A DNA stretch of 64,000 nucleotides from Pseudomonadota bacterium (GTDB lineage Bacteria > Pseudomonadota > Gammaproteobacteria > Steroidobacterales > Woeseiaceae). The notes below the pieces were generated by a model. It saw only the letters and a program-made list of their open reading frames with translations. It searched no databases and was not told where the DNA came from. Each line of letters opens with the position of its first letter. Within the stretch, counting starts at the first letter, position 1. Where the stretch lies: the NCBI GenBank assembly GCA_022563255.1, contig JADFNS010000007.1, positions 1 to 64,000 on the forward strand. The letters are read 5' to 3'. Made by a program: the position numbers and the translations under genes. Shown here piece by piece: positions 53,823 to 56,693 of the stretch.

Positions 53823-53856
53823 AAAAAAGCCCGCGCAGATGCGCGGGCTCTTTTTT
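53823..53856. terminator. Bidirectional-looking rho-independent terminator
   Basis: Nine-base GC-rich arms AGCCCGCGC (53828-53836) and GCGCGGGCT (53841-53849) around AGAT. Six A precede it and six T follow after one C, so it can work on both strands. On the minus strand it ends the EGSCG-peptide transcript about 40 bases after its stop and insulates tag. Confidence 0.92.
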
Positions 53857-53887: not shown

Positions 53888-54262
53888 TTAAAGCATTCCA
53901 CCACAGCTACCTTCTCCATCGTCTTTCTTGTCGTCGCCACCGCAAGAACCTTCTGCGTCTTTCTTGTCAGCGCCGCAAGAACCTTCGCCGCAAGAACCTT
54001 CTGCGTCTTTCTTGTGGTCGCCGCCACAAGAACCTTCTCCGTCTTTCTTGTCGTCGCCGCCACAAGAACCTTCTCCGTCTTTCTTGTCGTCGCCGCCACA
54101 AGAACCTTCGCCCTCACCGAGCATGTAGCCCGCGCTCAGCGCCGACATTTGGAACGGGCTGTCGACGGAGGCCGCATTAACCGACCCGCCGATTGCGAAT
54201 GCTCCGGCCAGTGCAACACCAACAGCCAACGCAACAGGTTTTAGTAATTTCTTCTCTGACAT
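53888..54262 (-). CDS. HvfA/bufferin-like exported peptide with seven EGSCG motifs
   Basis: A 124-residue low-complexity protein. A signal peptide (LKPVALAVGVALAGAFAIGGSVNA) is followed by FQMSALSAGYMLGEG, the conserved lead-in of HvfA-type precursors. Seven EGSCG motifs follow, with cysteines at 55, 67, 79, 91, 96, 107 and 120, separated mostly by GDDKKDG spacers. In H. influenzae HvfA and related bufferins the cysteines of EGKCG repeats are modified by a DUF692/DUF2063 enzyme pair to bind copper. Neither enzyme gene lies in this window. AGGAGA precedes the ATG. It is the third gene after an ECF sigma and its anti-sigma. Confidence 0.9.
   Translation of the reverse strand: MSEKKLLKPVALAVGVALAGAFAIGGSVNAASVDSPFQMSALSAGYMLGEGEGSCGGDDKKDGEGSCGGDDKKDGEGSCGGDHKKDAEGSCGEGSCGADKKDAEGSCGGDDKKDDGEGSCGGML
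53921..54113 (-). repeat. Tandem near-identical 36-base coding repeats
   Basis: The EGSCG gene contains five or so copies of a roughly 36-base unit encoding GEGSCGGDDKKD, nearly identical at DNA level, plus one shortened unit (EGSCGEGSCGADKKDA). Such identity suggests recent expansion by slippage or unequal recombination, and the copy number probably varies between strains. Assembly from short reads could miscount it. Confidence 0.88.
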
Positions 54263-54323
54263 CTCTATTTTCTCCTACAGGTTTTTGCCCAAGACCGGGC
54301 GTTCGTTTCTCAACAAAAGAGCT

Positions 54324-55055
54324 TCAAGTGCTCCACATTACTGAATCCAATATGTTTCGCCTGACGCGATCGAGTTGTTCCTCGCGACTTCCGACGATAG
54401 CAATACTGCCGCTGCCCACTGGAAGAATGACGCCCCGAATGTTGTCGCCCTCAAGCAGTTTGGCCTCAGCAATCGATTCTTCTGGCATCAACAAGATCGT
54501 TATGGGACCGAATTCTCCCTGGATAACAAGGTGCGGCACTTCGTTGCCGTTAATAACGCAATTCCGTGCGTAGGTGATAATCCCGGCGTCGTGATTCAAG
54601 ACCGCGATATCCGCCGGCACGGCCGACGCCAAATGACTGTTCGATACGCGCGTATTGCTGACCAGAAATGCCGTTGGTTCATGATCGACATGCGCCAGGA
54701 TCTGTTCCTCAAGCGTGCCATAGGTCACGCCGAATTCACTGAGCCGGACACCGATGGCCACCGCGAGCATCACGGAGGCCGCCAGCGCAAACCAGACCGG
54801 CTTCGAGAGGACACGACGGTCGGACAACGACGCCACGTTCTGCGTGTCGAGATCCGGTAACTGAGGCATCTGCAAAACAGGCACGGCGATTTCCAGTGCG
54901 CTTGCGATCTCGTCGTTCAGCGTCAGCATCTGTGTGCGATACGCCTGACACTCAGCACAGGCTTCCACATGCCCGGCCCCGCCCTCAAAGGTCGGGTCCA
55001 CGGTCAGCGCTTCAATGTATTCCTTGCAGTTCATCATCTCACTTGTCCGGCTCAT
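54324..55055 (-). CDS. DUF3379 membrane protein, zinc-type anti-sigma factor candidate
   Basis: A 243-residue protein. The N-terminus has Cys10, His29, Cys33 and Cys36 (MNCKEY, then HVEACAEC), a ZAS/zf-HC2-like zinc site typical of anti-sigma factors. One membrane helix is at about 85-105 (KPVWFALAASVMLAVAIGVRL). A C-terminal outer domain follows (TAFLVSNTRVSNSHLASAVPADIAVL, YARNCVINGNEVPHLVIQGEFGPITILLMP). This is the DUF3379 family. It overlaps the sigma gene by four bases (ATGA) and should hold the sigma inactive until a signal arrives. Confidence 0.86.
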   Translation of the reverse strand: MSRTSEMMNCKEYIEALTVDPTFEGGAGHVEACAECQAYRTQMLTLNDEIASALEIAVPVLQMPQLPDLDTQNVASLSDRRVLSKPVWFALAASVMLAVAIGVRLSEFGVTYGTLEEQILAHVDHEPTAFLVSNTRVSNSHLASAVPADIAVLNHDAGIITYARNCVINGNEVPHLVIQGEFGPITILLMPEESIAEAKLLEGDNIRGVILPVGSGSIAIVGSREEQLDRVRRNILDSVMWST

Positions 55056-55567
55056 GAGGCCATCTCATCAGCCACGTCTCGCTTAAGCTTGAGGCGAGCC
55101 CTGTGCAGACGCGTTAATACCGCTCCCTGCTTGAGCCCCATCATCTGTGCAATCTCGTTCGTGCTGTAGCCCATCAGGACTTGCAGAACCAACGGTTCGC
55201 GATAATCGTCGTCGAGCCGATAAATCGCTTCCCTGAGATCGTCAAGCTCCTCGTTTGGCGTCTCAGCCAGCAATGCAGACTGAGATGCCGTCAAATTATC
55301 AATGTCGACCGTCTCCAGCCGGCGTCGTTCAAAGTAGCGAGCGTTCTCCCGTCGCACGATCGTCAGCAACCACTGCTTGGCTGCCACGTCGTCGCGCAAC
55401 GCATCGAGGGACTTCCAGGCGCGCAGCAACGCCTCCTGAACGACGTCTTCGGCAATCGACTTGTCACGGCTCAACCATGCGGCATAACGGTACATGTCCA
55501 TATGGAAAACGGTGACAATCCTGTCAAATCTTCGCCGCCTGTCGCGCGCGGTTTTGCTACTGTTCAT
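55052..55567 (-). CDS. ECF sigma factor
   Basis: A 171-residue ECF sigma. Region 2: FHMDMYRYAAWLSRDKSIAEDVVQEALLRAWKSLDAL. Region 4: YREPLVLQVLMGYSTNEIAQMMGLKQGAVLTRLHRARLKL. Translation may start at an inner Met. It heads a three-gene minus-strand unit with the DUF3379 anti-sigma and the EGSCG peptide. In other bacteria, sigma/anti-sigma pairs of this kind control bufferin-type copper or oxidative stress peptides, so this pair likely controls the peptide gene. Confidence 0.9.
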   Translation of the reverse strand: MNSSKTARDRRRRFDRIVTVFHMDMYRYAAWLSRDKSIAEDVVQEALLRAWKSLDALRDDVAAKQWLLTIVRRENARYFERRRLETVDIDNLTASQSALLAETPNEELDDLREAIYRLDDDYREPLVLQVLMGYSTNEIAQMMGLKQGAVLTRLHRARLKLKRDVADEMAS

Positions 55568-55612
55568 ACGAGATGACCCGCTCCTGTTGATTTTTATTAC
55601 GCGAACCGCCCA

Positions 55613-55635
55613 AAACCACCTTTTAGAGGTGGTTT
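55613..55635. repeat. Perfect hairpin between the ECF sigma gene and hemB
   Basis: Nine-base arms AAACCACCT (55613-55621) and AGGTGGTTT (55627-55635) around TTTAG, in the 118-base divergent region. Neither side has a clean T-run. It may be an operator or part of a leader for either gene. The rest of the gap is AT-rich and surely holds both promoters, but I could not fix hexamers with confidence. Confidence 0.5.
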
Positions 55636-55679
55636 CCTTGGTAAAATATAGGGAAAATAAGCACTTACTATTATTTTGA

Positions 55680-56693
<1,014 letters not shown>

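Follow-up and report, generated by a model that had tools for sequence, protein, structure and literature searches.

The window, the whole 64,000-nt stretch of DNA that was analysed, carries on its minus strand a compact unit of three genes, encoding an ECF sigma factor, a DUF3379 anti-sigma with a zinc motif and an exported-type peptide. The initial annotation had read these genes as one unit; its coordinates are right and each product matches a profile. The features of the unit are as follows.

55575–55600, minus strand: ECF-type promoter-like element, GTAATAAA-N14-GGTC, with GGTC ending 7 nt before the sigma ATG
55052–55567, minus strand: ECF sigma factor, 171 aa, with Sigma70_r2 and r4_2 (Pfam) over cut-off
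54324–55055, minus strand: DUF3379 anti-sigma, PF11859 at 98.4 bits (cut-off 33.2), HxxxCxxC present
54287–54300, minus strand: stem-loop GCCCGGTCTTGGGC between the DUF3379 and peptide genes, 24 nt upstream of the peptide ATG
53888–54262, minus strand: HvfA-like precursor, 124 aa, NF050137 match, putative N-terminal signal/leader plus core
53828–53849, unstranded: palindromic terminator-like hairpin with a T-run on both strands, read from the sequence, closing the unit

In a profile search the sigma factor also scores 200.4 bits against NF009170 (cut-off 197). Its gene overlaps that of DUF3379 by 4 bp, and 61 bp separate the latter from the peptide gene. The unit is flanked by hemB, divergent and upstream, and by a methyladenine glycosylase gene downstream. 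A scan with a sigma alignment returned 80 loci, 48 of which (L159–L206, 70–87% identity; hereafter ‘named loci’) come from Woeseiaceae, Woeseia, Gammaproteobacteria or Proteobacteria records, and of these 48/48 have a hemB gene oriented opposite to the unit and 43/48 have the glycosylase gene. The named loci are not independent of the 107-genome survey described below, because they partly come from the same genomes. A second conserved block (ATTTTCCCTGTATTTAGGTAGGGTTTCCAC-like) was seen by eye at 55590–55690, between hemB and the sigma gene, and in most of 30 family upstream regions.

The intergenic stem-loop recurs in the family: a hairpin scoring at least 8 is found in 46 of 49 distinct intergenic sequences, compared with 75 of 245 shuffles, and may stabilise the peptide mRNA or set the peptide:sigma ratio. 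It usually lies about 20–28 nt 5′ of the peptide start. At the other end of the unit, where a strong terminator had been annotated, a hairpin with T-runs is present. The terminator scan reports it on the plus strand only, and its count of three terminator-like sites for the region is, taken together, not significant against 1.9 in shuffles.

The peptide precursor and the anti-sigma

The window peptide scores 39.4 bits against the HvfA-family model NF050137 (cut-off 19.5) over two stretches, bearing out its reading as an HvfA/bufferin-like precursor; it has no Pfam match. Its cysteines, at positions 55, 67, 79, 91, 96, 107 and 120 (spacings 12, 12, 12, 5, 11 and 13), all lie in EGSCG motifs, with none elsewhere. 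As the initial annotation had noted, the motif is EGSCG rather than EGKCG, with Lys at position 3 in none of the seven. A putative N-terminal signal/leader was recognised by eye, and so was the PFxMxxLSxGYM stretch in it that is conserved across family sequences.

Serine is the rule in the family, which consists mostly of marine-sediment metagenome-assembled genomes (MAGs). Across 50 distinct family peptides, position 3 of the xxxCG motifs is Ser in 335 of 428, Lys in 49 and Ala in 30, and the cores are acidic, with 457 basic (K, R, H) versus 1129 acidic residues after residue 45. Peptides of a class sample (26, from 30 loci) have Lys in 199 of 208 motifs and 526 basic versus 356 acidic residues, a contrast that is inflated because the class set was chosen by a Lys-trained model. 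A second precursor type, EGACG/EGSCG, occurs away from DUF3379 in two genomes (G006 and G093; loci L007 and L015). FonBC tolerated Ala, Arg and Thr at motif position 3, and Phe and Glu there severely impaired processing; of substrates with one or two repeats, the two-repeat peptide alone was modified, losing 8 Da (PMC13097082). Serine at this position is absent from sections 12 and 13 of that report, and the tolerance of FonBC for other residues makes EGSCG plausibly a substrate of an MNIO enzyme.

DUF3379 comprises HxxxCxxC, a predicted membrane helix at about 85–107 and a domain at about 140–243. Beyond the helix, H122, H125, C166 and H175 are conserved, giving the periplasmic part near-invariant Cys and His. 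Of 53 family copies, 50 have the zinc motif. Its three residues align in only 33 of 59 DUF3379 rows from further afield, in part because the matches are trimmed. This partner of the sigma factor matches DUF3379 only, and not NrsF (DUF1109). Gene overlap, motif and fold suggest that DUF3379 inhibits its adjoining sigma, and its periplasmic part may be RseB-like. We found neither a role for DUF3379 nor a paper of that name in the open-licence PMC literature.

Separation of the precursor from its putative enzymes

The initial annotation had listed DUF692, DUF2063 and DoxX genes as absent. This is correct locally, as none is seen beside the unit or within up to 6 kb in the 48 related loci, but not for the genome as a whole. 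The proposed search, run on the source MAG (2.45 Mb, 34 contigs, 84% complete), located a single PF05114 (MNIO) match (4.7e-103) on another contig, C21, within one operon.

L002, 5425–7558: MNIO-DUF2063-DoxX operon, headed by MNIO, directly after DUF1841

All three gene types are thus in the genome, in an arrangement that departs from the canonical hvf/captophorin one, in which the precursor adjoins MNIO and DUF2063. The operon contains no precursor, and none lies between DUF1841 and MNIO; a search of the MAG with NF050137 found no second HvfA-like gene, and no EGxCG open reading frame lies within about 1.5 kb at 31 family MNIO loci. Among the HvfA-like loci of the class sample, MNIO is within 1.5 kb in 23 of 30, and the order DUF1841, precursor, MNIO occurs at 9 of 30 (for example, L134, L136, L141, L147 and L150). 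Because these other genomes hold a precursor there, the family appears to have an empty precursor slot, from which the precursor may have moved away.

The separation is conserved. Among 107 family genomes, 78 have the peptide, 87 DUF3379 and 87 MNIO. The matches listed give 81 peptide places (one per gene, from 77 of the 78 matching genomes), and at 77 of these, in 76 genomes, the peptide lies directly 3′ of DUF3379 on the same strand. The four exceptions are one contig edge (G083) and extra matches in G006, G091 and G093, each of which also has an adjacent copy. In the 76 genomes with the peptide after DUF3379, MNIO is never near, and 73 have it elsewhere. Among the matches listed, G011 and G105 alone have both genes on one contig, where some 2.1 Mb or more of contig coordinates separates them. 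The named loci agree: the peptide follows DUF3379 in 45 of 48, the remaining three contigs end there, and flanks of up to 6 kb hold no MNIO. Absence of linkage between DUF3379 units and Cys-repeat peptides, proposed at the outset as a refutation, is contradicted because the linkage is near-universal in the family. Four genomes scored as lacking the peptide (G027, G058, G081 and G088) are among those that have one below the profile threshold. Beyond the family, a homologue search gave 1,758 HvfA-like clusters at E up to 0.001, from 4,454 candidates, and such relatives are therefore common in public data.

MNIO is present in 75 of the 78 peptide-bearing genomes. In G035, one of the three with no MNIO match, the promoter and an ATG stand at the end of a contig; the other two, G062 (100% complete, in 470 contigs) and G087, show no such sequence. 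DUF3379 and MNIO co-occur across the 107 genomes (both in 82, one only in 5 and 5, neither in 15; Fisher 2e-10, uncorrected for relatedness). In a maximum-likelihood tree of 53 MNIOs (midpoint root, with a long-branch warning from the program), the 25 family enzymes of the main type make up a clade with 100/100 support, nested in a group of 45 rows that includes 20 MNIOs encoded beside EGxCG precursors. The other eight split off (100/100), among them five paralogues from the family and an EGxCG row on a long branch.

Relatives outside the family show other arrangements. In G244, sigma-DUF3379 is divergent from EGSCG precursor-MNIO (59% identity)-DUF2063-DoxX in one cluster; the exact element is absent and GTAAGGAT-N14-GGTC is present. 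G286 follows the gene order of the window, from hemB through sigma, DUF3379 and an EGKCG precursor to a more distant glycosylase gene, also with the exact element absent. MNIO lies within 1.5 kb in at least 10 of 45 extra-family class genomes with DUF3379 over cut-off (eight by coordinates; G244 and G289 by BLAST).

A promoter-like element common to both units

The element GTAATAWW-N14-GGTC connects the two units. It lies upstream of the sigma gene at 30/30 and of MNIO at 23/23 family loci (22 distinct places), and is found neither upstream of the peptide (0/59, 49 distinct sequences, short intergenic only) nor of DUF1841 (0/14). All 48 named loci (partly the same genomes) have it, with a gap of 7 nt from GGTC to the sigma ATG in 45; this gap would suit a transcript that is possibly leaderless. 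The window contains one exact match, and three matches with up to two mismatches, no more than chance. In the source genome, the looser GTAATA-N16-GGTC has six sites, three of which read GTAATAAA-N14-GGTC, before sigma, MNIO and a 67-aa open reading frame. The reversed pattern has four there, so that in this genome sites other than those of sigma and MNIO carry little weight by themselves.

Across the family the excess is clear: the 87 genomes with DUF3379 have 289 sites versus 27 for the reversed-pattern control, and the 20 without it have 28 versus 24. About two sites per genome in these counts are those of sigma and MNIO. In the 54 genomes with listed sites, 152 sites comprise 35 at MNIO, 35 at sigma and 82 others, and a perfect site is present at 35 of 49 MNIO and 35 of 41 DUF3379 places. 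The 14 MNIO places with no site are five paralogues (35–41% identity), three contig-edge pieces and six that are unexplained. From this distribution, the DUF3379-linked sigma probably recognises GTAATAWW-N14-GGTC.

For the 82 further sites, made up of 80 fetched loci and, from the source genome, L094 and L099, downstream genes were assigned by BLAST. Peroxiredoxin-like genes follow 19 of them (AhpC/TSA by Pfam in the one tested, L242), DUF547 five (one tested by Pfam), TlpA-like thioredoxins four (27–100% identity to the query locus), a thiamine-pyrophosphate (TPP) enzyme four, YHS-like genes three (one of two tested passes Pfam), sigma itself three and a second DoxX one; an undescribed short peptide stands behind the element at four, in four genomes including that of the window.

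L094, 1266–1466, minus strand (also at L241, L247 and L253): 65–67-aa membrane or exported peptide ending RRNDI/RRTDI/LRNDI

Two of these peptides were tested against Pfam and neither matched. The sites at L239 and L318 lie at contig ends and resemble promoters of MNIO. At 36 of the 82 sites no recurrent gene follows; four of these form two pairs of like genes. In the source genome, the TlpA-like gene has GTAATAAG-N14-GGTC upstream and the peroxiredoxin-like gene GAAATAAA-N14-GGTC, with one mismatch; neither is significant alone. A second peroxiredoxin-like copy there (L320) has two in-frame stops and no promoter site. The TPP enzyme gene has GTAATATT-N14-GGTC in three genomes, with near-identical proteins (L249, L252 and L254). 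Six genomes with no DUF3379 or MNIO match (G014, G015, G016, G022, G032 and G046) have peroxiredoxin, TlpA, small-peptide, TPP or YHS genes at none of their nine sites and DUF547 at one, and G045 (an MNIO fragment only) has recurrent genes at none of five.

Interpretation and relation to known systems

Our reading, which we hold to be probable, is that the unit in the window supplies the precursor for a split system of the oxazolin/bufferin-like kind (MNIO-modified, HvfA-type), under its own ECF sigma and matured in trans. The setting is best read as a periplasmic thiol/metal-stress regulon. An envelope signal would relieve the inhibition of sigma by DUF3379, and the freed sigma would read GTAATAWW-N14-GGTC promoters, one driving sigma-DUF3379-precursor and a second, on another contig, MNIO-DUF2063-DoxX. 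Acting in trans in the cytoplasm, the enzyme pair would then modify the cysteines of the EGSCG motifs, as the analogy to 5-thiooxazoles suggests. Once exported, the peptide would serve as a buffer against stress from copper-like metal and/or oxidants, alongside the co-regulated peroxiredoxin-like and TlpA-like proteins. Woeseia is reported as one of the leading genera of a copper surface (PMC6917582), which fits and proves nothing.

The initial annotation had left two alternatives, enzymes acting in trans or a peptide working unmodified. The former is strongly favoured, as the sole MNIO operon is precursor-less and shares the sigma's element. The latter, in which the EGSCG thiols would stay free and form a periplasmic buffer that binds metal or scavenges oxidants while the MNIO operon serves another substrate, we consider unlikely. 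It would accord with an enzyme that is not co-located, with the thiol-redox nature of several recurrent co-regulated genes and with G062 and G087, which carry the peptide with no MNIO match. It is disfavoured because 75 of 78 peptide-bearing genomes have MNIO and because the EGSCG precursor of G244 adjoins one; the MNIOs of the group otherwise sit beside EGxCG precursors, neither the MAG nor the 31 MNIO loci offer another HvfA-like or EGxCG candidate, and both units have the same promoter element.

That element might instead be a general promoter of another sigma, with coincidental co-regulation, as the 36 sites with no recurrent gene and the regulon-type sites of G026 (82% complete) and G031 (77% complete), in which DUF3379 is undetected, could suggest. 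The site excess is confined to DUF3379-bearing genomes, however, and in the named loci the element keeps a fixed position ahead of the sigma gene, as autoregulation would predict, leaving this explanation very improbable. A canonical hvf cluster broken by fragmentation or rearrangement in this strain, conceivable for an incomplete MAG in 34 contigs, has next to no probability, being contradicted by the family survey (76 genomes among the matches listed with MNIO not near the peptide, the two same-contig cases and the named loci) and by DUF1841 standing directly before MNIO with no precursor between.

Building on the split-system reading, we tentatively propose, as a possibility more doubtful than probable, an acidic Ser-type (EGSCG) branch of MNIO peptides tied to its own sigma switch. 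DUF3379 would unite anti-sigma and RseB-like sensor in a single protein whose periplasmic Cys/His site responds to metal or oxidant; the mature peptide would buffer the same signal and so shut off its own sigma, in a regulon that includes peroxiredoxin-like and TlpA-like proteins and the 65–67-aa peptide. More generally, the analysis proposes a role for DUF3379, supplies a motif for finding further members and connects a metallophore-like peptide with genes of periplasmic thiol-redox function; a Ser-type substrate would also probe enzyme tolerance. Precursors away from MNIO genes have been noted before, in work that did not decide between modification by enzymes of a different locus and no modification at all (PMC12452194); for one family, the promoter-like element common to both units favours the trans route.

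Like the present system, the HvfA/oxazolin system of H. influenzae and fontiphorin FonA (Buf_EGKCG/captophorin) combine a precursor bearing xGxCG repeats with MNIO, DUF2063 (PME1) and DoxX genes of one genome; their precursors have a signal peptide, comparable to the putative one seen here, and FonA has seven sites, as does the window peptide (PMC13419390, PMC13097082, PMC12452194). Here, unlike in those systems, the precursor lies apart from the enzymes in a sigma-DUF3379 unit, Ser mostly replaces Lys and the cores are acidic, so that the tested EGKCG substrates differ from those of the family. A 2025 survey of the MNIO landscape reports sigma and NrsF genes in Buf1 clusters and their absence from Buf2, and its section 15 names no sigma gene for Buf_EGKCG clusters (PMC12452194). 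Neither a sigma-DUF3379-precursor unit nor the EGSCG type was found in the open-licence PMC literature, in keeping with the earlier suggestion of a possibly undescribed variant.

Sigma control of MNIO operons is already known from Caulobacter and H. influenzae (PMC3511200, PMC7907618). A single motif, GTAACC-N16-CGAA, places DUF692/DUF2063/DoxX operons of more than one locus under Caulobacter sigmaF-NrsF, which shares with the present system an ECF sigma with a negative regulator and the use of one promoter motif across loci; in Caulobacter, however, DUF2282 precursors lie within the enzyme operons, the regulator is NrsF/DUF1109 rather than DUF3379 and the promoter differs (PMC3511200). H. influenzae RpoE2 controls the doxX cluster under HOCl, and RpoE2-HrsE and Neisseria SigE also pair an ECF sigma and a ZAS anti-sigma over this cluster (DoxX, periplasmic COG3767, UPF0276/COG3220 and DUF2063) and oxidative-repair genes (PMC7907618). 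COG3767 presumably corresponds to the HvfA precursor. Unlike here, those four genes lie together, the anti-sigma is a 67-aa cytoplasmic protein and the sigma unit has no precursor (PMC7907618). The possible resemblance to RseB/MucB, periplasmic RpoE regulators, would be one of fold only; unlike them, the DUF3379 domain is part of the anti-sigma itself and has near-invariant Cys and His.
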